Part shown: piece by piece, positions 33,227 to 49,550 of the stretch
How positions within the stretch are numbered: position 1 is the first letter of the stretch
Layout: every line of letters starts with the position of its first letter
Assembly: GCA_905480225.1 (NCBI GenBank)
Contig: CAJQPO010000061.1
Coordinates: 1 to 61,499, forward strand
Direction of reading: 5' to 3'
Length of the DNA: 61,499 bases
Source: an uncultured Flavobacteriales bacterium
Lineage (GTDB): Bacteria; Bacteroidota; Bacteroidia; Flavobacteriales_D; Parvicellaceae
Program-made: the position numbers and the translations under genes
Notes under the pieces: generated by a model
Told to the model about the DNA's origin: nothing
The model's input: the letters and a program-made list of their open reading frames with translations, nothing else
Database searches by the model: none

Positions 33227-33292
33227 GTGCTTTTATAAGCAAATAGTTCGGGACAAAGATGGGAATAAATCATTATATTTAGCTTGTTCACA

Positions 33293-35707
33293 ATGCAAGA
33301 AAAAAAAGATACAGAACACATACGTAAAACACTGGCTTATTACCAAGAATTAATGGATAATTCAGGTGATTACATTTTCTCAGTGACTGAAAATGGGAAA
33401 ATGTTATTTACCAATAACCATTTTCAAAGCAAATTGCATTATACTAAAGAACAATTTGAGAATCTTAATTTCATTTCAGTTTTACACTATGTTTCTTCCA
33501 AAGTTTTTAGAAAGTTATTCTCAGTAATTTCCAGTCATGAAAATGTGACGCTTCGTCTTACGTCAAGAATTGGAACAGAAGTTATTATAAATGGGAATTG
33601 CACGATTTACAAAGTAGATGATGAGTTTATTTTAAAAGGATTGTTTCATGATGTAACTGTCGCATTCAATAAAAACAAAGGGCTCGAACTTTCTGAGGTC
33701 AAGTTTAAATTGCTTTTTGAAAAAACACTTAATCCCATTGTTTACTATGACCCCAAAGGAATAATTGATTGTAATGAAGCATTTTTAAAAATCCTTGGAT
33801 ACTCCAATAAAAATGAAATTCAGGGAATGGTTCCATCAGATTTTTCAGCGACGATTCAGCCTGGAACAGACGACCCTGTTCGTGCAGCATGGAAAATTAG
33901 CAACCTGGCTCTTCAAAATGGTGGCCACCGATTTGAGTGGATGTATAAGAAAAAATCGGGCGAAGAATTCTTAGTTGCGGTTTCTCTATCTTTAATAGAG
34001 CTTGATGCACGCAGAGTTTATTTTGCAGTCTGGAATGATATTACGGAAAGGTACAGAGAGGAAAATGCAATCAGATCAAGAGAAACTAAAATGAAGTCAA
34101 AAAATGAAAGGCTAAGACTTCTCAATGACATCAATCAATTACTTATTCAAGACATTGACTTTTTGCACAAAACAAAAAACATTTTAAAATCAATAACACA
34201 GAACCTAGCTATTCATACCACAAATATTTCAATTATTAATGCTGAAATGTCTGAATTAACTTCCTATGCCTATTCAAGCTTTGGGACTGGTAAGTTTTAT
34301 GATGGTAAAAAGTACCGCTTAAACATTGTGCCAGGCATAAAACAATTGCTACAAGGAGACATCTATCACAACCCGAATATAGAGCCAGACCAATCAAAAG
34401 GTATAGAAGACAGACTGCATAAATACGGCTTAAAATCTGTAATTAGCATTCCCATCAGTCTAAACGATCACACTTTAGGACTTTTAAGCATTGCGGACCA
34501 ATCCGTTCACGCGTTTGACGAAGGACTCGTTAGCTTGCTTATTGACGTATCAAAATCAATGGCATTATTTATTGACCAATACAATTTAACCGAACTCAAT
34601 AGGAAATATGGTCAGCTCGAAGAGTCTTTGCATCAGCTCGGCACCAAAATTTTATCATTTCTTAATATCCAAGAAATAGGAGAAAGTCTTTATTCCGAAG
34701 TAAACGAAATCATGGATGCACCAATTTTCGGCTTCGGATTATTTAATGAAAATGAGAACGTATTAGAGTTCAAAAGTATGATTGAATACGATGAAGCTCT
34801 TCCTTCTTTTAACTTTGACCTAGTCGATTTAAGCAATCTGGGATCCATTTGCTTTAATAATGGAATGGACATCGTAATTAATAATTTTGAAAGAGACATA
34901 TCAAAGTATACCAGCGAATACGACGGCTCTAAAATCCCAGGTAAACAACCAGAATCTCTCGTTTACCTGCCGTTAATATTTAAAGGTGAAAAGATTGGAG
35001 TAATTACAGCACAGTCGTACCGGAAAAACAAATATGGCGATAAGAACGTGTTCATCTTAAAAATTCTAGCCAATTACATAGCCATTGCAACGCACAATGC
35101 CCATAAGTTCGAATCAGCAGAAGAACAAGTCGATATCAAAACGCGGGAAATCATCATGCAAAAAATACAGCTGCAAAAAACCAATTATCACCAACGTATT
35201 ATCAATTTAATTGGCCAGAAAATTTCTACGGAATCAAACTTTGATGACATTTTCATTGACATGTATGATAAAATTAGTCAGCTCATGGATACTACCATCT
35301 TTGGAGTGCGGATTTATCACCACGATAAGCAAGTAATTGAATACAATTATGAAATAGAAAGTGGACTGCGAACTAAATATGGATTCATATCTATCAAGGA
35401 TGGAAATAATTATTCTAATTGGTGCCTTAACAATTCAAATGCAATATTCATTAATGACAATTCCATTGAATACAAAAAATATGTTGCTGAAATTCAAGTC
35501 AGTTATGGCGAAATCTCTGAATCTTTATTATTTCAGCCATTGATATTAAATGACGAAAAATTAGGCGTCATGACTGTCCAGAGCTACAACAAGAATGCGT
35601 ACAACAGAGCCCACTTAGACATGTTAGGTAACTTGGCGAATTACACTTGTTTGGCAATTAAAAACCAATTTAAAAAACAACATACATTAGGTGATGTGAT
35701 TGATTAA
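33293..35707 (+). CDS. PAS-PAS-GAF-GAF-GAF sensory protein without output domain
   Basis: The protein has about 804 residues. Two PAS domains (about 15-130 and 135-260; NPIVYYDPKGIIDCNEAFLKILG) are followed by a short coiled coil and three GAF domains (about 285-430, 440-610 and 645-795; each ends with a 'lGvmtvqSy.kn.y' strand such as LGVMTVQSYNKNAY). The chain stops after the third GAF, with no kinase, GGDEF, HTH or phosphatase part. No membrane segment is seen. I use the ATG at 33293, because a TATATTTA box at 33274-33281 puts initiation downstream of the alternative TTG at 33284. It converges on another PAS/GAF gene and the two stop codons share a TTAA. Confidence 0.75.
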   Translation: MQEKKDTEHIRKTLAYYQELMDNSGDYIFSVTENGKMLFTNNHFQSKLHYTKEQFENLNFISVLHYVSSKVFRKLFSVISSHENVTLRLTSRIGTEVIINGNCTIYKVDDEFILKGLFHDVTVAFNKNKGLELSEVKFKLLFEKTLNPIVYYDPKGIIDCNEAFLKILGYSNKNEIQGMVPSDFSATIQPGTDDPVRAAWKISNLALQNGGHRFEWMYKKKSGEEFLVAVSLSLIELDARRVYFAVWNDITERYREENAIRSRETKMKSKNERLRLLNDINQLLIQDIDFLHKTKNILKSITQNLAIHTTNISIINAEMSELTSYAYSSFGTGKFYDGKKYRLNIVPGIKQLLQGDIYHNPNIEPDQSKGIEDRLHKYGLKSVISIPISLNDHTLGLLSIADQSVHAFDEGLVSLLIDVSKSMALFIDQYNLTELNRKYGQLEESLHQLGTKILSFLNIQEIGESLYSEVNEIMDAPIFGFGLFNENENVLEFKSMIEYDEALPSFNFDLVDLSNLGSICFNNGMDIVINNFERDISKYTSEYDGSKIPGKQPESLVYLPLIFKGEKIGVITAQSYRKNKYGDKNVFILKILANYIAIATHNAHKFESAEEQVDIKTREIIMQKIQLQKTNYHQRIINLIGQKISTESNFDDIFIDMYDKISQLMDTTIFGVRIYHHDKQVIEYNYEIESGLRTKYGFISIKDGNNYSNWCLNNSNAIFINDNSIEYKKYVAEIQVSYGEISESLLFQPLILNDEKLGVMTVQSYNKNAYNRAHLDMLGNLANYTCLAIKNQFKKQHTLGDVID

Positions 35708-38700
35708 TATTCCAGAGCGAGCAAAGTAATGTCATCCGTCAACTCCCGGTCTCCCTTCCACTCTTCTATACTATTGACAATAATGTCGTATTGCTTTTGT
35801 AAAGGTATTTTAAGATTTTCTTCTTCACAAATAAGCCCCTGGAGCTGTTTCTTTGAAAATTTTCTGCGTCGACCAGGGCCACCAAATTGATCTTGAGCAC
35901 CATCGGAAAAAAGAAATAATCTATCTCCCTTGTTCAGCTGAATTTTGGATGTATTAAATGGAACATCTACTAATTCAGCTTCGCCAATGGATTTCAATGC
36001 ACCTTTAGTTTCCATTAATTCCCCATTGCTAACATAATGGATCGAAGTTCGAGCACCAGCATAAAGCAACTCCCCAGAATCTATATCAACTGTGCAGATT
36101 CCGACATCCATACCATCGCCTAAAGTCTCTTCAGACTTATTGATAGCAAACTGAATTTCCTCATCTAATTGGGTAAGTAGAAGCCCTGGATCTGACGTTT
36201 TTTTACTATTGACGATATTGGCAATAGTTTGAGAGCCAAGTACGGTCATGAATCCTCCCGGCACCCCATGACCTGTGCAATCAGCAACAACAATTATTAA
36301 TTTATTCCCTAACAACGACCACCAATAAAAATCACCAGAAACAATGTCTTTCGCTTTGTAGTATAAATGAGCATCTAAGAAAAACTCACGGATAAAAGAA
36401 ACATCAGGCAAATAGGCATTTTGAATCCGTTTCGCATAATTAATACTGGCCGTAATGTCTCTGTTTTTTGCTACCAGTTCTTCCTTATCTGATTCAATAA
36501 TTGACTTCAATTGCATTTGATGTATAGAAAGGGAGATCCCCTTTGCAATATCACTTAAACTGCTTTTAAAATCATCGTCGTATTCGTTATGTTCCACGAA
36601 TCCAAGGTTCAACGAACCAATTAGTTCACGGTCAAAAATCAGAGGAACCTGTAAGTAACTATTAACTCCAATGTCAAGGAGTCTTTTATCCGATTCAGAC
36701 TTTTCTGAAACATCTTTTATGGAACTTACAACAACGATTTCTCCCCTTCGAAGCATATTAACATTCCGGAATTGCCCAAGTGGCAACTTCTCAGAATCCT
36801 CGGTTACATTAATTAACTCATCATCTATTCTATAGTAGGAATACGCATCATTTTCAAAATCAAATAAACTTAGCGTTAAGCGAGCAATGTCAATTTGTCC
36901 GAGTACTAAATTTTTAAGCGATGCAATTAGAACATTACCAAAGGGCTCATTGGTCAAAATACTTTCATTAATATTATTGATAGACTCCAACTTAGAATTC
37001 AATAAACTTAATTCCTCCTCTTTCTTTTTAAGTTCTGTAATGTCTTCAGTAAATCCAGAGATTTTGACCACTTCTCCATCATTATTTTTGATTGGGACAG
37101 CCGTACAATGCACCCATTTCAGTCCCTTTTCAGGATGGAAAATTTGAAATTGCTCATCAAAACCAGCTTCAAAAACATTAGCCAGGTAAGTTCGCTGAAT
37201 TCGAACTCTATCATCAGGAACAACCGTTTCCATCCAAGCCATAGGGTTTTCCATCAGCACAGATGGTTTAGAACCGAAAATGGTTTCATACGCCTTACTG
37301 ACATATATCATTTCTCTATTTTCCTGATCAAAAAACCAGAATACTTCCTTCAAAGATTCATTCAGCTGTCTGAAATTTTCCTCACTTTGCATTATTTTTC
37401 GAGCTTGCTCTTTCTGTTTATAAGCAACTGAGATAGAATTTGCGATGTCCTGAATTACTTTCACTTCTTCATCAATAAACATAAAAGGATACCTTCCCCC
37501 CACATTAAATGAACCCATTATCTTATCTCCAACTACAAGAGGAACCATGATGTAACTTTTCAATCCTTCTTTAAGCAAGCGCTGATCAGTAACGGATTTT
37601 GCACTCCTAACAAGGTCTTGAACCACATAGGTTTGTTTGAACTTTATATCGGTCAAAGAGCCCATCTCAGATAAGTCCAAGCCATTTTCAAAAGACAGTG
37701 TTTCGCTCCGGTCGTCAATAAAATAATAATCACTGTATTCTATGGCTTCATCGAAAATCATTAGAGACACTTTCATGTACATGCTATTGCTTTTCTTAAC
37801 AACAGACAACAATTCATTAAACAGCTGGTGCTCCGTCCTTTCTTTCATTAATACATTGTCAATGTCATGCATTAATTCGAGCGTTTTGGAATACTCATTC
37901 AGCCTAAATTCATCCAGTTTTTTATCCGTAATGTCTGATCCCAAGCTAATTATTTGCTCAATATCGCCATCCTCGCCTACAATCGGGGTAACGGTTACGG
38001 CCAACCATATGTGGTCACCATTTGCATCTACATCAGTAAGCTCTGCACGAAATGGAATTTTATTCTCATATACATGCTGTCTTAATTTCTTAATTATTTT
38101 AGGGTTAAACTCTTCCACTCTAAAGAATTTAGATGTTTTCTTCCCTATAATGTCCTTTGCGTTGTACTTAAAAATAGTTTCAAAAGCACTATTTACCCAA
38201 AGTACCTGATTTTCTTTGTCCGTGATTAAAACATAATTATCTGTATTGGTTGCAACCATAGACAGTCGCTTCAATTCCTCTTGATAATCATGCAAAGAAG
38301 TAACATCTTGACCTACACCAATCACCAGTCCACCTTCTATTTCCGTGTCTGTCCAATTAAAATATTTCTTCTCACCCCCGACGTCCGTAATCGCATTCGT
38401 ATATAATCTCTTACCATCAAGGTATTGTCTATTTTTTGTCAATTCCTCCCGAGTAATTCCATCCATTTTTTCACGCATTCTCCACCACCCATCGCCATAT
38501 ACATCTTCCAAATTATAGCCTAATTTTTCAACGATACTATTACTAGCAAAGATGATTTCGTTTTTAGCATTGCTGACCAAAATAATTGAATCACCTTTTT
38601 GTAGGATTGTATCAGAAAGACGCAGGCGCTTGGATAAATTTAGCTTGACAATAATAAGCACGGACACAATCATTAGTGTCCAGAACGAAATCATTACGAA

Positions 38701-39504
38701 TTGTAATCGAATAAAATAGCTAGCATCACTAATGTACGAAACACCAGTAGCTAGAAGGAAAACGATCAGCGCAAAGAAAACATAGCTTCGCAAGGAGTTA
38801 AAAATGATACTTGCAAATGACGTAATCATTACAAAACCAACAATCATCGTAGGCGCTAAATTATTAGCCAGCAGCAATGTGATTATATGCCCTTCAACGA
38901 CGACGAAAGTAGCGCTAACAATCCAATTGATATTACGACGAATCAATTTTGAATAATAGCTAGTAGCTAATAAGGACAGGGTTGCTGCTCCAATACTAAT
39001 GGTAGCCACCAATTGAGTTGATAATATTTGGTCATCAAGAAAACTATTGATGATCGATGCAATGGGATAAGCAAGCCCAACAAAAAGAAGAATTAACCGG
39101 TTTGTTCCTAATGATTGCTGTAAAATAGAAGCATTTACAATCTGTAATTGAATGTTTTTGTAAGCCCTTGAAAACGAATAAACCACAATTAAAATAAAGA
39201 CTATAATTAATAAGTAAAACCACCAGGTTTGATAGTAAGGAATCGTAAGCAAGAGAATACCGTTTTTCATTAAATAACTGGATTTCTGCCGCGACGAAAT
39301 AGAGGACAAAAAACATGTATCATTTAAACACTCTACAGAAAAATCATTTTTTTGCACCGTGTTAATTGGCAACTCCGCGTCTGCAATAGCCTCAGCGCTA
39401 AACCAATAATCTTGATTAGAAATATTCTCAACATTGTGCTCCCAAGACCATAAATAAAATGGAATTAAAAGTACAATCATTAAACTTAAACGTCGAAATA
39501 TCAT
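35704..39504 (-). CDS. Membrane PAS/GAF sensor with C-terminal SpoIIE-type phosphatase
   Basis: This protein of about 1266 residues has a signal peptide/anchor, a short extracytoplasmic segment, a membrane helix near 95 (TIPYYQTWWFYLL) and about six more helices to 300. PAS domains follow at about 310-430, 430-550 and 710-840, with GAF domains at about 560-700 and 850-1010. A PP2C-like SpoIIE/RsbU serine phosphatase follows (about 1050 to the end) with GDFYWW, VVADCTGHGVPGGFMT and LFLFSDGAQDQ holding the metal-binding aspartates. Such proteins dephosphorylate STAS-type anti-anti-sigma proteins or relatives. The ATG at 39504 is preferred over an upstream TTG. Confidence 0.85.
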   Translation of the reverse strand: MIFRRLSLMIVLLIPFYLWSWEHNVENISNQDYWFSAEAIADAELPINTVQKNDFSVECLNDTCFLSSISSRQKSSYLMKNGILLLTIPYYQTWWFYLLIIVFILIVVYSFSRAYKNIQLQIVNASILQQSLGTNRLILLFVGLAYPIASIINSFLDDQILSTQLVATISIGAATLSLLATSYYSKLIRRNINWIVSATFVVVEGHIITLLLANNLAPTMIVGFVMITSFASIIFNSLRSYVFFALIVFLLATGVSYISDASYFIRLQFVMISFWTLMIVSVLIIVKLNLSKRLRLSDTILQKGDSIILVSNAKNEIIFASNSIVEKLGYNLEDVYGDGWWRMREKMDGITREELTKNRQYLDGKRLYTNAITDVGGEKKYFNWTDTEIEGGLVIGVGQDVTSLHDYQEELKRLSMVATNTDNYVLITDKENQVLWVNSAFETIFKYNAKDIIGKKTSKFFRVEEFNPKIIKKLRQHVYENKIPFRAELTDVDANGDHIWLAVTVTPIVGEDGDIEQIISLGSDITDKKLDEFRLNEYSKTLELMHDIDNVLMKERTEHQLFNELLSVVKKSNSMYMKVSLMIFDEAIEYSDYYFIDDRSETLSFENGLDLSEMGSLTDIKFKQTYVVQDLVRSAKSVTDQRLLKEGLKSYIMVPLVVGDKIMGSFNVGGRYPFMFIDEEVKVIQDIANSISVAYKQKEQARKIMQSEENFRQLNESLKEVFWFFDQENREMIYVSKAYETIFGSKPSVLMENPMAWMETVVPDDRVRIQRTYLANVFEAGFDEQFQIFHPEKGLKWVHCTAVPIKNNDGEVVKISGFTEDITELKKKEEELSLLNSKLESINNINESILTNEPFGNVLIASLKNLVLGQIDIARLTLSLFDFENDAYSYYRIDDELINVTEDSEKLPLGQFRNVNMLRRGEIVVVSSIKDVSEKSESDKRLLDIGVNSYLQVPLIFDRELIGSLNLGFVEHNEYDDDFKSSLSDIAKGISLSIHQMQLKSIIESDKEELVAKNRDITASINYAKRIQNAYLPDVSFIREFFLDAHLYYKAKDIVSGDFYWWSLLGNKLIIVVADCTGHGVPGGFMTVLGSQTIANIVNSKKTSDPGLLLTQLDEEIQFAINKSEETLGDGMDVGICTVDIDSGELLYAGARTSIHYVSNGELMETKGALKSIGEAELVDVPFNTSKIQLNKGDRLFLFSDGAQDQFGGPGRRRKFSKKQLQGLICEEENLKIPLQKQYDIIVNSIEEWKGDRELTDDITLLALEY

Positions 39505-39576
39505 GAATTGAAGTAAAGTAAATAAAAACAAGGCGATTTGTAACTATTTAGCGGATATTCTTCATAAACTTGACTA

Positions 39577-40245
39577 ATGATAGCAGAAAATATCCAAACC
39601 ATAAATAGTACAATACCCAATACTGTTAAGCTCATTGCAGTAAGCAAAACAAAACCCTTTACCGATATTCAAGTTGCTTATGACGCCGGACAACGTGATT
39701 TCGGTGAAAACAAAGTGCAAGAACTAGTCAATAAAACACTTGTTTTACCAAAAGATATTCGATGGCATTTAATAGGTCATTTGCAAACAAATAAAGTAAA
39801 ATACATTGCCCCTTTCGTACACCTCATTCATGCGGTAGATAGTATTAAATTATTAAAAGAAATTAACAAGCAAGCAAAAAAGTATGGACGTAATATCAAT
39901 TGCTTACTGCAATTTCACATTGCTCAAGAGAGCACCAAATTTGGATTATCTCTGGTTGAAGCACAAGAAATTGTTGTTAGCACCGAATTTCTTCAATTAG
40001 AAAACGTAACGATTTGTGGTGTTATGGGCATGGCCTCTTTTGTTTCCGATCAAGCAGTAATAACGACTGAATTTAAAAAGCTAAAAGAAATTTTCTCCGA
40101 ATTAAAATCAACCGCTTTTAGCGAAAATGGGAATTTCACTGAAATCTCAATGGGAATGAGTGGTGATTACGACGCAGCCATCCAAGCTGGAAGCACAATG
40201 ATAAGAGTAGGAAGTAAAATATTTGGACATAGAAATACTAATTAA
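39577..40245 (+). CDS. YggS/PLPBP-family pyridoxal-phosphate homeostasis protein
   Basis: This 222-residue protein is complete for the family. VKLIAVSKTKP places the PLP-binding lysine at about K24, followed by FGENKVQEL, WHLIGHLQTNK, and the phosphate-binding GMSGDYDAAIQAGSTMIRVGS near the C-terminus. Members bind PLP without known catalysis and maintain vitamin B6 and amino-acid balance. Directly after the stop begins the gene-free region with the repeated 70-nt elements. A weak hairpin (AAAAGTTG at 40255-40262 with CAACTTTT at 40280-40287) could end its transcript. Confidence 0.9.
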   Translation: MIAENIQTINSTIPNTVKLIAVSKTKPFTDIQVAYDAGQRDFGENKVQELVNKTLVLPKDIRWHLIGHLQTNKVKYIAPFVHLIHAVDSIKLLKEINKQAKKYGRNINCLLQFHIAQESTKFGLSLVEAQEIVVSTEFLQLENVTICGVMGMASFVSDQAVITTEFKKLKEIFSELKSTAFSENGNFTEISMGMSGDYDAAIQAGSTMIRVGSKIFGHRNTN

Positions 40246-40306
40246 TCCAAAAGAAAAAGTTGATTTCTAATTGAAGCGACAACTTTTACATTGTTTTTAT
40301 GTCATC

Positions 40307-40370
40307 CATCGAAAAATTTGCGCCACTCAACGAAGGTCCAATTGCCCAAAAACAAATTTCCATAGTTTTT
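40307..40370 (+). promoter_or_regulatory. Promoter/operator of small-RNA copy 1
   Basis: Direct repeats CATCGAA (40307) and CAACGAA (40328) are 21 bases apart. The -7-like box TAGTTTTT starts at 40363, and the repeat RNA begins 12 bases after the T of that box. The same parts at nearly the same distances occur before all four copies, although the rest of this upstream region differs from copies 2 and 3. Confidence 0.6.
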
Positions 40371-40374
40371 TGTC

Positions 40375-40444
40375 AGGCAAAATTAAGTAGTAAGAAAGTA
40401 GTTTTATGGTTAGATAAGGGAAGCAATAGCTTCCCTTTCTTTTT
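40375..40444 (+). ncRNA. Candidate small RNA, copy 1
   Basis: This is a 70-base element beginning AGGCAAAATTAAG and ending in a T-run after a strong hairpin. Its first 40 bases are A/G/T-rich and appear unstructured. A conserved ATGGTTAGATAA could encode only three residues, so coding is unlikely. It is identical to copy 2 over all 70 bases. The start is set at the position where sequence shared with copy 4 resumes, a fixed 12 bases after the TAGnTTT box. Not a family I recognise. Confidence 0.6.
40416..40444 (+). terminator. Rho-independent terminator of copy 1
   Basis: AAGGGAAGC and GCTTCCCTT form a 9-bp stem with an AATA loop, followed by TCTTTTT. Confidence 0.8.
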
Positions 40445-40501
40445 GCCCAAAATTTAAAAAATGAATCGGTAATAACATGATATTTGCTGGCCAGTACCTT
40501 T

Positions 40502-40566
40502 CATCGAAAGTTATCTGCTACTCACCGAATTTTATAGCCAGAACTCAGGTGATCTACCTAGATTTA
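40502..40566 (+). promoter_or_regulatory. Promoter/operator of small-RNA copy 2
   Basis: CATCGAA (40502) and CACCGAA (40523) are direct repeats 21 bases apart. TAGATTTA at 40559-40566 is one base off TAnnTTTG. Relative to the inferred RNA start at 40571 the repeats begin at -69 and -48. Confidence 0.6.
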
Positions 40567-40570
40567 ACTC

Positions 40571-40640
40571 AGGCAAAATTAAGTAGTAAGAAAGTAGTTT
40601 TATGGTTAGATAAGGGAAGCAATAGCTTCCCTTTCTTTTT
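40571..40640 (+). ncRNA. Candidate small RNA, copy 2
   Basis: This 70-base element is identical to copy 1 from the first base to the end of the T-run. It has its own promoter-like box and its own terminator, so it would be an independent transcript and not a tandem domain of a single RNA. Confidence 0.6.
40612..40640 (+). terminator. Rho-independent terminator of copy 2
   Basis: It has the same 9-bp stem, AATA loop and TCTTTTT tail as copy 1. Confidence 0.8.
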
Positions 40641-40697
40641 GCCCAAAATTTAAAAAATAATTCGGCAATATCATGATATGTACTGACCAGTACCTTT

Positions 40698-40762
40698 CAT
40701 CGAAAGTTATCTGCTACTCACCGAATTTTATAGCCAGAGATCAAGTAATCTACCTAGATTTA
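40698..40762 (+). promoter_or_regulatory. Promoter/operator of small-RNA copy 3
   Basis: CATCGAA (40698) and CACCGAA (40719) are 21 bases apart; TAGATTTA is at 40755-40762. Spacing to the inferred RNA start at 40767 is the same as in copy 2 (-69 and -48). Confidence 0.6.
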
Positions 40763-40766
40763 TCTC

Positions 40767-40836
40767 AGGCAAAATTAAGTAGTAAGAAAGTAGTTTTATG
40801 GTTAGATAAGGGAAGCATAAGCTTCCCTTTCTTTTT
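40767..40836 (+). ncRNA. Candidate small RNA, copy 3
   Basis: This 70-base element differs from copies 1 and 2 only in the terminator loop (ATAA in place of AATA); the stem and the entire 5' part are unchanged. Confidence 0.6.
40808..40836 (+). terminator. Rho-independent terminator of copy 3
   Basis: AAGGGAAGC and GCTTCCCTT pair around an ATAA loop and are followed by TCTTTTT. Confidence 0.8.
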
Positions 40837-40937
40837 CCACTAATTAAATTAATTTTTACACGTTATTCTTGATTCAAGTTACTAATCCAGGGTAATCCTC
40901 CTTGCAAATCTCACTGTAGAAAACAAACAAAGCAACT

Positions 40938-41022
40938 CATCGATAAAATATGCGCTTTATCGATAAAAAACAGCACTTCACCGAAACATAAAGATGCTTA
41001 GTCTATATAAAGCGTAGTTTCA
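40938..41022 (+). promoter_or_regulatory. Promoter/operator of small-RNA copy 4
   Basis: TATCGAT (40958) and CACCGAA (40979) lie 21 bases apart at -69 and -48 from the inferred start at 41027, as in the other copies. An extra CATCGATAAA at 40938 sits 20 bases further upstream. The -7-like box is TAGTTTCA at 41015-41022. The surrounding sequence is unrelated to copies 1-3, so the spacing is conserved despite divergence. Confidence 0.55.
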
Positions 41023-41026
41023 TAGT

Positions 41027-41096
41027 AGGCAAAAATAAGTAGGAATAAAAGTGGTTATGGTTAGATAAGGGAAGCGCAAAACTTCCCTTTTCTTTT
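41027..41096 (+). ncRNA. Candidate small RNA, copy 4 (diverged)
   Basis: This is again exactly 70 bases from AGGCAAAA to the end of the T-run. It differs from the other copies at many positions in the 5' half and in the hairpin loop, but keeps AGGCAAAA, TAAGTAG, the block TTATGGTTAGATAAGGGAAG and the complementary CTTCCCTT. This pattern points to selection on the stem and on the single-stranded block before it. Confidence 0.55.
41067..41096 (+). terminator. Rho-independent terminator of copy 4
   Basis: AAGGGAAG and CTTCCCTT form an 8-bp stem around a CGCAAAA loop, followed by TTCTTTT. Confidence 0.75.
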
Positions 41097-41322
41097 GCAA
41101 TAAACTTTCATTTATAGCCAAATATTTAAAACAATAGTTACTATTGAAAATCAATTCTGTTCAACCCCTCTTAAACTGGTTCTAAGTCTTTGTATTGTAA
41201 AATTTCAGTAGAAGACCTTTTAATTCAAGTTTAACCGTTACGATCTAGTGCGATAGCAAAAGCAAACACATCGATATCCAATTTCTTTTCCAATACACCA
41301 ATCTATTTTATGTATAATCGTA

Positions 41323-41330
41323 TACATTTG
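41323..41330 (+). promoter_or_regulatory. -7 box TACATTTG
   Basis: This perfect TAnnTTTG box sits 9 bases before the ATG at 41340. A single CATCGATA at 41269 lies at about the distance of the distal operator repeat of the small-RNA promoters, but the second repeat is absent. Confidence 0.5.
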
Positions 41331-41339
41331 CAAAAATTT

Positions 41340-41885
41340 ATGGCAATGAACCAAACCAAGAATCCTGGACAAGTACTGGCACAAATTATGATTGATTTGG
41401 GTTCAGAAAAAGAGAATGTTGTTCTTAAAGCAATTAAAAAAGCAAGAACAAAAGGGAATGAACAAATCATTCCTGCGCTTTTCAACACCTATCGTAACAC
41501 TAAAACAAATCGCATAAAAGACGAAATCACAAGTATTCTAAGTGAGCTAAAATCAACAGAGACCATCGAACCATTAATTGAAGAATTAAATATCGGTAAT
41601 GAAGCAAGTAGGTGTTTAGCCTTGACCTCTATTTGGAGCTCCGGACTAAATGCCAACGAATACATTGATGAAATCATTCAAGCCGCTGTTAATGGTAGTT
41701 TCCTTGAAGCTTTTGAAGCACTCACTATAATTGAAAATCTAGATCCTCCTTTTGAAGAAGAAGTCATTTTGAACTCTCAAATAATCTTAAAAACATATTT
41801 CAGTAATCAAGAAAAATCTGAAAAAAGTGAAATTCTCAGAAACATCACTACCGTAATTAACGGTATCAATTCCAATTTACAATAA
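41340..41885 (+). CDS. HEAT-repeat-like protein of unknown function
   Basis: The protein has about 181 residues with helical repeats in the middle (ENVVLKAIKKARTKG, NRIKDEITSILSELKSTETI, EASRCLALTSIWSSG), the pattern of HEAT/PBS-lyase repeats used for protein binding. There is no signal peptide or membrane segment. The frame is open back to 41310, but the -7 box at 41323-41330 lies inside that extension, so the start should be the ATG at 41340 or 41346. It is the first gene after the small-RNA array, on the same strand. Confidence 0.7.
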   Translation: MAMNQTKNPGQVLAQIMIDLGSEKENVVLKAIKKARTKGNEQIIPALFNTYRNTKTNRIKDEITSILSELKSTETIEPLIEELNIGNEASRCLALTSIWSSGLNANEYIDEIIQAAVNGSFLEAFEALTIIENLDPPFEEEVILNSQIILKTYFSNQEKSEKSEILRNITTVINGINSNLQ

Positions 41886-47091: not shown

Positions 47092-47823
47092 ATGTACGCA
47101 TTATTCTTAAAAGAAGTTCGATCATTTCTAAACTCCTTAATTGGTTACATAACAATTGTCATTTTCTTATTGGCAATAGGCCTGTTCATGTGGGTTTTTA
47201 GTGGGTCAGAAAATGTTTTTGAAATGCGAATTTCAACACTCAATTCGCTTTTTTTTAATGCTCCTTTAATTTTCATGTTCATCATACCTGCGATAACCAT
47301 GAGGTCTTTTGCAGAAGAAAAGCGAACCGGAACAATCGAACTACTATTAACTAAACCCCTCACAGATATACAAATTGTATTGGCTAAGTACTTAGCAGGG
47401 TTTTCATTAATCTTCATTGCTTTGCTTCCTACTTGGGTATACTATATATCTATCTACTTCATGGGAGATCCTGTTGGCAATATTGACAATGGAGGAACTT
47501 TAGGCGGTTATATTGGCCTGTATCTAATAGGAGCTGTTTTTGTTGCAATTGGAACGTTTTGCTCTGCTTGCACTAAAAACCAGGTGATTGCGTTTCTTTT
47601 TGCTTTAGTCCTTTCCTTCCTTTTCTATCACGGCTTTGAATACCTCGGGAGTTATTCTTGGTGGGGAACTTGGGACGGAGCGATTCAGAGCATTGGCATT
47701 CAACAACATTATACTGCCTTGCAGAAAGGTTTATTGGACACCAGAGACCTGGGCTATTTTATAAGTCTAATTTTAATCTTTTTAGTAGTCACAAGATTAG
47801 TTTTAAAAAGTAGAAAATGGTAA
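47092..47823 (+). CDS. gldF: Gliding-associated ABC transporter permease GldF
   Basis: This 243-residue protein with six membrane helices begins YALFLKEVRSFLNSLIGYIT and contains MRSFAEEKRTGTIELLLTKPLTD, the conserved coupling segment of ABC-2 permeases of the GldF type. GldF works with GldG and the ATPase GldA and is needed for gliding in Flavobacterium johnsoniae; its transported substrate is not known. The ATPase gene is not adjacent here. Its TAA stop overlaps the gldG start in TAATG. Confidence 0.9.
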   Translation: MYALFLKEVRSFLNSLIGYITIVIFLLAIGLFMWVFSGSENVFEMRISTLNSLFFNAPLIFMFIIPAITMRSFAEEKRTGTIELLLTKPLTDIQIVLAKYLAGFSLIFIALLPTWVYYISIYFMGDPVGNIDNGGTLGGYIGLYLIGAVFVAIGTFCSACTKNQVIAFLFALVLSFLFYHGFEYLGSYSWWGTWDGAIQSIGIQQHYTALQKGLLDTRDLGYFISLILIFLVVTRLVLKSRKW

Positions 47824-49550
47824 TGGCGTGGAAAGACATCATACAAACGATTATCATTATTTCGATAATTGCTGTCTTAAACCTAATCGGGTTTCTACAA
47901 TATGCACGAATTGATCTTACCGACGAAGGTAAGCACTCTCTCACACCAGGTTTTACGGAACTGCTTCAAAACGACATTGACCATAACATTTATGTAACGG
48001 TTTACCTGTCTGGTGACGATTTTCCCGCACATATTGAGAATTTACGTCGAAACGTTCAAGACAAGCTGGCTGCGTTCAATAGAATTTCTGAAGGTATGGT
48101 TAAATTCGAATTCATCGATCCTGATGAAGACGAAGAGCTCGCACCAGAATTATTTAAGCAATTAGAAGCTGCTGGTTTGTCTGCAAAAAAAGTCAGGGAG
48201 CAAAACGAAGGTTCCGTCAGTGAGATCTATTTCTGGCCAGGTGCAACTATCGAATATGGAACAGACAAATCTACAGCTGTGCAATTTATTTCTGGAGGAA
48301 TTCAGCTCGTCGACAAATTCACACTGAATATGGCCAGTGATCAGCTCGAATACAAGTTTTTGCAAGCCTTTCGAAAGTTAACTCGAAAAAGTTATCCTCA
48401 CGTTGGGTTTCTAGAAGGACACGGCGAACTACCTCCTGAGAATACCATTTCTATTCGAGGACACCTAAAAGAATCATACAACGTTGATCAAGTAAACCTG
48501 CGGGATTCGAATAACAACGAAATGGTGAACGCCTTATCGGATTACCAAAGTGTCATCATCGCTCAACCCAAATCAGCATTCTCAGATAAAGAAAAATTCA
48601 TTCTAGACCAATTCGTAATGAACGGGGGGAAAGTTGCTTGGCTCATTGATCCTCTCAACATGAATGAAGACAGTCTATTCCGAACCGGACAAACCATAGC
48701 ACTGCCCTACAAATTAAATATCAGTGACCTTCTTTTCAGCTATGGAGCTCGAATAAATAATGAAATGATTATTTCTGAAAAATGTGCGCCAATCTATGAT
48801 TTTCGAAACAATCAACCAGCAGACTGGAATTTTTATGTTCTAGCGCGAAATAGCAATCGAGATCCCGTAGCATCCAATTTAAATCCTGTTAAATTGAAAT
48901 ACGCAAGCCCAGTTGATCCTGTAGGTGACACAGCTATCATCAAACGTATTTTACTGGAATCTGCACCTAATTCAAAAGTTTTTAAAAACCCTGCTCGTGT
49001 TTCTTTAGCTTATCTAGACCCTGCTTATAAACCCAACTATGTGGGAGAGTCTGTATCTGAACGGCCGACTGCAATATTGTTAGAGGGATCTTTTAAAAGT
49101 TTTTACCGCAATTCGCTTGACTCGACATACAAAAATAATCCAGACGTCAATTTTAATGAATCAAGCGATTTTAACAAAATGCTAGTGATAGGAGATGGAG
49201 ACATTATAAAAAATGTTGTCCGAAGAAATGCTGGAGTGAATTCAGAATTAAATCCAGATACAGATGTGTTAAGCCCTGATATCGAATTTGTAACTATGGG
49301 ACAGCCTTATCCCGCTTATGGTAATACTGATTTTTTCAAAAATGCTTTTGATGACCTCATGGAACAAGACAACTTAATCGCTTTACGAGGAAGAGAATTC
49401 AAACAACGTCCGTTAAACGATCAATTCATTTTCGATAAAGGGACAAAATCTACCATTAAATTCTTAAACGTAGCCCTTCCTATAATACTCCTTTTACTAT
49501 TCGGAGGATTACAATACCTTATACGCAGAAGAAAATTTGCCAAAAAATGA
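47823..49550 (+). CDS. gldG: Gliding-associated protein GldG
   Basis: The protein has about 575 residues, an N-terminal membrane helix, a large periplasmic part (DLTDEGKHSLTPGFTELL, then VTVYLSGDDFPAHIENLRRNVQDKLAAF, and VIIAQPKSAFSDKEKFILDQFVMNGGKV), and a C-terminal membrane helix followed by RRRKF. This is the GldG architecture of ABC-type auxiliary transport proteins. The ATG in TAATG at the gldF stop is preferred over an ATG two codons earlier. It overlaps the following DUF4340 gene by 4 bases. Confidence 0.88.
   Translation: MAWKDIIQTIIIISIIAVLNLIGFLQYARIDLTDEGKHSLTPGFTELLQNDIDHNIYVTVYLSGDDFPAHIENLRRNVQDKLAAFNRISEGMVKFEFIDPDEDEELAPELFKQLEAAGLSAKKVREQNEGSVSEIYFWPGATIEYGTDKSTAVQFISGGIQLVDKFTLNMASDQLEYKFLQAFRKLTRKSYPHVGFLEGHGELPPENTISIRGHLKESYNVDQVNLRDSNNNEMVNALSDYQSVIIAQPKSAFSDKEKFILDQFVMNGGKVAWLIDPLNMNEDSLFRTGQTIALPYKLNISDLLFSYGARINNEMIISEKCAPIYDFRNNQPADWNFYVLARNSNRDPVASNLNPVKLKYASPVDPVGDTAIIKRILLESAPNSKVFKNPARVSLAYLDPAYKPNYVGESVSERPTAILLEGSFKSFYRNSLDSTYKNNPDVNFNESSDFNKMLVIGDGDIIKNVVRRNAGVNSELNPDTDVLSPDIEFVTMGQPYPAYGNTDFFKNAFDDLMEQDNLIALRGREFKQRPLNDQFIFDKGTKSTIKFLNVALPIILLLLFGGLQYLIRRRKFAKK

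Follow-up and report, generated by a model that had tools for sequence, protein, structure and literature searches.

A cluster of 70-nucleotide units beside yggS

The window, a 61,499-nucleotide stretch from an uncultured marine Flavobacteriales bacterium related to Flavobacterium, contains an intergenic gap of 1,064 bases between yggS, which encodes a PLP-binding protein, and an uncharacterised gene, after which purC lies on the opposite strand. Four units of 70 nucleotides, each a candidate small RNA (sRNA) gene, are arrayed head to tail in this gap (Table 1). The protein encoded downstream of the array is conserved, with homologues throughout the family (30 of the 39 family genomes), and its gene frequently adjoins yggS. 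Two large signalling proteins, a PAS/GAF protein and a PAS-GAF-SpoIIE phosphatase, are encoded nearby at 33284-39531, and a protein resembling the N-terminal part of the phosphatase follows yggS in both of the closest relatives (G001 and G002). At 47092-49547, a gene for an ABC-2 membrane protein is followed by one for an ABC_transp_aux protein, an arrangement that resembles the gliding-type GldF/GldG pair.

Table 1. Positions in the window of the array, its predicted control elements and the flanking genes
Feature	Position	Strand	Details
yggS (PLP-binding protein), upstream neighbour	39577..40245	+	TIGR00044, 200.8 bits; likewise the neighbour in G001 and G002
Putative activator site, copy 1	40306..40334	+	CCATCGAA (40306-40313) and TCAACGAA (40327-40334), 21 bp apart; CGA at -65/-44
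Two head-to-tail 196-nt duplication units	40356..40747	+	91% identical; contain copies 1 and 2 and the spacer that follows each
-7 box, copy 1	40363..40369	+	TAGTTTT; 12 nt before RNA start
Candidate sRNA copy 1, type A	40375..40444	+	Terminator stem-loop 40416-40437
Putative activator site, copy 2	40501..40529	+	TCATCGAA-N13-TCACCGAA; CGA at -66/-45
-7 box, copy 2	40559..40565	+	TAGATTT
Candidate sRNA copy 2, type A	40571..40640	+	Identical to copy 1; terminator 40612-40633
Putative activator site, copy 3	40697..40725	+	As in copy 2
-7 box, copy 3	40755..40761	+	TAGATTT
Candidate sRNA copy 3, type A	40767..40836	+	Two loop differences; terminator 40808-40829
Putative activator site, copy 4	40937..40985	+	Half-sites TCATCGAT, TTATCGAT, TCACCGAA; CGA at -86/-66/-45
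-7 box, copy 4	41015..41021	+	TAGTTTC
Candidate sRNA copy 4, type B	41027..41096	+	Terminator 41067-41089
Uncharacterised conserved protein, 191 aa, downstream of array	41310..41885	+	No Pfam or NCBIfam match; family-wide homologues

The original prediction had described four such units, and their starts and common length of 70 nucleotides were correct. Direct comparison confirmed that copy 2 repeats copy 1 without change and that copy 3 departs from them only in the terminator loop, where both of its differences lie. The spacing of copies 1-3 is explained by the 196-nucleotide tandem duplication. Copy 4, which had been called an older, diverged copy, has indeed diverged: it has AGGCAAAA, TAAGTAG and TTATGGTTAGATAAGGGAAGC in common with copies 1-3 and retains the start (nucleotides 1-8) and the paired stem, and the intervening sequence differs. 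It is, however, no mere decayed copy, since the same variant, which we call type B (copies 1-3 being type A), is conserved between species.

All four units end in a hairpin and a T-run, as had been proposed; shuffled sequences gave an expectation of 0.7 intrinsic terminators for the region, which contains these four and no others. In the predicted fold, the 5′ half of the RNA is mostly unpaired, and the terminator is the sole stable helix.

Promoter boxes and a shared direct repeat

In every copy in the window, a Bacteroidota -7 box of the form TAG[AT]TT[TC] precedes the AGG at the RNA start by exactly 12 nucleotides, in agreement with the TAGnTTT box originally described; the version in copy 4 is TAGTTTC. 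By sequence, these boxes fit the flavobacterial sigma-A box TAnnTTTG, whose mapped position in Flavobacterium is -12 to -5 relative to the start site (PMC9723704). A clear -33 element is absent from most copies, which would fit dependence on an activator.

The original prediction had overlooked a direct repeat further upstream. Two CGAA half-sites of the form YYA(T/C/A)CGA(A/T) precede every copy, 21 bp apart, with the CGA at about -65 and -44, and the copy 4 promoter carries an additional third half-site with its CGA at -86. Types A and B therefore probably differ in promoter control, with two and three half-sites, respectively. The window contains four half-site pairs, all at promoters of the array, compared with 0.16 expected. 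When all three congeneric genomes were scanned, the pair was matched exactly at sRNA promoters only (4, 2 and 1 matches), and pairs with one mismatch elsewhere in these genomes were at the level of the control. The locus combines multiple, closely similar RNA units within a single genome, a predicted promoter and terminator for each unit, and a candidate transcription factor site shared by the four promoters and those of relatives, as is characteristic of tandem sibling sRNAs.

Conservation in the genus and at the same site in other genera

The element lies at the same locus in G001 and G002, which are congeneric with this genome. G001 has at least four copies, in the order type A, type B and type A on contig C22, with a further type A on C55; the last two type A units are separate copies, because they differ at overlapping RNA positions. 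The assemblies of both relatives break exactly inside the array (C22/C55 in G001, C275 in G002), so copy numbers in short-read metagenome-assembled genomes are lower bounds.

Comparison of these genomes revealed that nucleotides 1-39 of type A are identical in three species and that nucleotides 1-40 of type B are identical in the two species showing this type (copy 4 and G001). By comparison, yggS protein identity between this genome and its relatives is 61% for G001 and 84% for G002, and the spacers outside the boxes have diverged between species. For type B, 20 of 20 positions matched in every 20-nucleotide segment across nucleotides 1-40, and about 8-12 of 20 matched across most of the flank beyond the boxes. 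Gene conversion by itself would not suffice to produce this identity, since type B is the same in different species yet unlike type A. The simplest cause of the cross-species identity of both types is selection on the sequence, and at the level of sequence comparison the 5′ 39 nucleotides of the predicted RNA and the promoter boxes are shown to be under strong purifying selection. The -7 box and its 12-nucleotide spacing, whose loss in relatives would have refuted the array idea under the terms of the original prediction, were kept in nearly all G001 and G002 copies with an assembled promoter, the exception being one G001 copy that reads TACATTC. The idea also survived the second such check, because the element was not scattered: strong matches in this genome were the four copies at the array locus and nothing else.

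Beyond the genus, the RNA itself was hard to follow. Rfam 15 returned no match, consistent with the earlier statement that no family was recognised; none reached the gathering threshold, and matches at permissive thresholds fell far below the cut-off and belonged to other families. When about 85,000 species were scanned for the exact pattern, true members turned up in only two Flavobacteriales metagenome-assembled genomes, one of them labelled Crocinitomicaceae, and these correspond to G001 and G002. Other bacteria with the exact pattern (Plectonema, Macrococcus and others) scored at most 19.5 bits and were rejected as chance matches. Covariance-model searches of 100 relatives and 39 family members gave strong matches within the genus only and nothing convincing outside it, the remainder being generic terminators with scattered 5′ matches. 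The best-looking outsider, AAGTAGTA...TGGTTAGA... in G076 (38 bits), fell to background under a model that included the -7 box, and it lacks the half-sites. This intergenic sequence (L048:4927-5001; AAGTAGTAGTAGTAAG...TGGTTAGA...GGGAAGC hairpin), in a genome from another family of the order, possibly resembles the sRNA by chance. No element was found in the viral contigs and phages searched.

The original prediction had also missed a related site in other genera. In four species of one genus (g2) and three of another (g7), the gap adjacent to yggS holds a single conserved 70-nucleotide unit, laid out as TAnnTTT, five bases, AGGGGTAGT..., an inner hairpin and a terminator; the -7 box likewise lies 12 nucleotides upstream of AGG. 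These units are themselves candidate sRNAs (L138:1377-1450, L141, L142 and L136 in g2; L148:1344-1415, L146 and L147 in g7), with AGGGGUAGU, a GUUGC..GCAA hairpin, a terminator and a folding z of about -4, and they had no match in Rfam. The g2 promoters carry two CGA half-sites at -85 and -65, with a 20-bp period, in the places and with the period of the upper pair of type B, and within the 250 kb examined every occurrence of TYATCGA-N13-TYATCGA was either at the type B promoter or at one of the four g2 promoters. No CGA half-sites were found in the g7 promoters. Similarity of the RNA bodies between this genus and g2/g7 was not significant: in local alignment 111 of 2000 shuffles did as well, and the models gave E 0.28-0.37. 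Position and promoter thus suggest that the locus shares an ancestor with those of g2 and g7, but the RNA sequence does not prove it. One tentative reading, which we think has a minority chance of being right, is that the promoter rather than the RNA is the conserved part beside yggS in Crocinitomicaceae-related genera. The 12-nucleotide -7 spacing and, in part, the TYATCGA repeats would have persisted while the 70-nucleotide body was replaced or became too divergent to recognise (structured AGGGGUAGU in g2/g7, unstructured AGGCAAAA here), and one lineage, which has neither Hfq nor an RRM_1 protein, would have amplified the unit to at least four copies.

A model for the array and its place among known sRNAs

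The discrete units, promoter-like boxes, terminators, shared upstream site and conservation best support sibling sRNA genes that are switched on together. We consider it likely that the array consists of tandem trans-acting sRNA genes, co-activated through the shared half-sites, whose 5′ ends base-pair with mRNAs; transcription, the class of the activator and base pairing are steps that we infer. The original idea of an sRNA array with separate promoters is supported and, as far as sequence can tell, strengthened by the upstream direct repeat.

In this model, a single activator would bind both half-sites, which lie two helical turns from each other and just 5′ of a weak promoter, and all copies would be switched on together, giving a steep rise in RNA dose. 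A LytTR-type response regulator is our first guess for the activator, because the repeats described for LytTR recur every 21 bp (9 bp plus 12 bp; PMC6193735), Bacteroides examples have ACCG-type half-sites and the genome contains 13 LytTR matches. LytTR promoters have direct repeats with a period of about 21-22 bp upstream of the -35/-33 element, and the period here is 21 bp. However, the type A pair lies about one helical turn nearer the promoter than the published repeats, which are about 8-11 bp upstream of -35/-33 (PMC6193735), while the g2 pair lies further upstream. None of the LytTR genes examined has the half-site pair upstream, so the regulator is a guess. An AraC-type activator is the second candidate; such half-site spacing is also possible for regulators of this type.

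The unstructured, AU-rich 5′ end (AGGCAAAAWTAAGTAGKAAKAAA...TTATGGTTAG) would pair with target mRNAs near their start codons. We favour base pairing by the 5′ end because of the analogy with Bacteroides, where GibS and the FopS RNAs, about 65-70 nucleotides long, repress through 5′ seeds (PMC7366714, PMC11697453); by the same analogy, pairing here may repress targets without Hfq, which was not found in the three genomes of the genus. RRM_1 (PF00076) proteins were also absent from these genomes, and a Bacteroides control genome was positive. Since the seed is mostly common to types A and B and the middle differs, the two types would probably have overlapping targets. Complements of the 5′ seed and of TTATGGTTAG were no commoner than a reversed control, and no seed-complement match was clearly conserved at a start codon. 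Two weak leads are a lipoprotein start (contig C39 of G002, C118 of this genome) and the leader of a thymidylate-synthase-like gene (C111 and C93, respectively).

Other readings of the array fared less well. A short multicopy RNA could instead titrate an RNA-binding protein, as CsrB and RsmY do with CsrA, or bind polymerase, with no mRNA pairing. The 5′ part has single-stranded motifs in which UAG recurs; these, the multiple copies and the failure to find a complementary target would all suit such a sponge, but no repeated motif is displayed on stem-loops, the sole stable stem being the terminator, the three genomes have no RRM_1 protein and Rfam gave no match, and we regard this as unlikely. 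Less probable still is a cis-acting function, in which successive promoter-terminator leaders meter transcription into the gene at 41310. Although the array lies directly upstream of that gene on the same strand, attenuation does not require four complete promoter-terminator units, no antiterminator helix is predicted, conservation peaks at the RNA 5′ end rather than near the gene, and in many other family members yggS and the gene are separated by only a short gap in which no unit was detectable.

Two further readings seem to us very improbable. The placement of copies 1 and 2 within a recent 196-nucleotide tandem duplication could point to a REP-like or other structural or mobile repeat, or a recombination product, with no RNA function, yet there is one locus per genome, the viral contigs and phages searched lacked the element, and each type, A and B, has been conserved in its own right from species to species, promoter boxes included. 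The equally remote idea of a small-protein family ending in ...QAKLSSKKVVLWLDKGSNSFPFFL, read through copies 1-3, arises because the claim that no reading frame of useful size is present was not strictly right: ATG-initiated frames of 52, 58 and 56 amino acids overlap these copies, and G002 has this frame open as well. These frames failed the coding test, with substitutions spread evenly over the codon positions (6/5/6 and 7/7/5); moreover, copy 4 and one G001 copy each have a stop immediately before the RNA, type B carries a frameshift and the common CGAA boxes fall in differing frames. The small-protein reading is already contradicted. A type I toxin-antitoxin system was rejected, as neither strand has a conserved small hydrophobic ORF.

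As a probable set of tandem sibling sRNA genes, the array has parallels in several known systems. OmrA/OmrB, PrrF1/2 and AbcR1/2 are also tandem duplicated RNAs, and OmrA/B have common ends and a differing middle, but these proteobacterial systems have two copies each (PMC4211561). The five LhrC RNAs of Listeria (LhrC1-5) are near-identical multicopy RNAs with their own promoters, all dependent on LisR (PMC4132741); they belong to an unrelated phylum and pair through CU-rich UCCC motifs. The array has no such exposed C-rich (UCCC) motif in single-stranded regions, its UUCCC lying only inside the terminator stem. The csRNAs of streptococci, controlled by CiaR, and the Qrr RNAs of Vibrio, controlled by LuxO, resemble the model proposed for the array as sibling RNAs co-activated by a response regulator. 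The CiaR and LuxO boxes differ from the direct repeat of the array, and no Rfam covariance model, Qrr being assumed to be in the library, reached its gathering score. Unlike the units of the tandem array, the Qrr genes lie apart from one another, as do some of the csRNA genes (PMC4211561).

Nearer relatives by taxonomy offer a different contrast. Rfp18 of Flavobacterium is an sRNA from the same order, but it is strongly structured, is predicted to pair through its third stem-loop and has no array described (PMC9723704). In our limited literature search, the FopS work was all that we found on multicopy or tandem sRNAs in Bacteroidota, and there was nothing for Crocinitomicaceae. Because tandem arrays break short-read assemblies, as in both relatives, they are likely under-counted. 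The array is also like FopS and GibS of Bacteroides (PMC11697453, PMC7366714), which are paralogous RNAs of about 65-70 nucleotides with a conserved 5′ seed and a terminator, from a phylum often missing classical chaperones such as Hfq. By description, FopS differs in having 14 paralogues of mixed class (intergenic, antisense and 3′ UTR) rather than one head-to-tail cluster, and FopS binds the RRM protein RbpB, whereas no RRM_1 protein was found in the three genomes with the array.

At the level of sequence, the kind of object originally proposed was correct, with the putative activator box, the two conserved types and the related site in other genera as additions. A four-copy array with one shared candidate activator site would be a ready dosage-type RNA switch. 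Its setting is a phylum with little Shine-Dalgarno use and genomes in which Hfq and RRM_1 were undetected, raising the testable question of how sRNAs act in marine Flavobacteriales that lack a known chaperone. The interest of the array lies in this shared switch, in the chaperone-poor setting and in the possibility that one RNA body has given way to another while the promoter was conserved. Judged from its sequence, the array RNA seems to be a new family within an established kind, the multicopy RNA switch.
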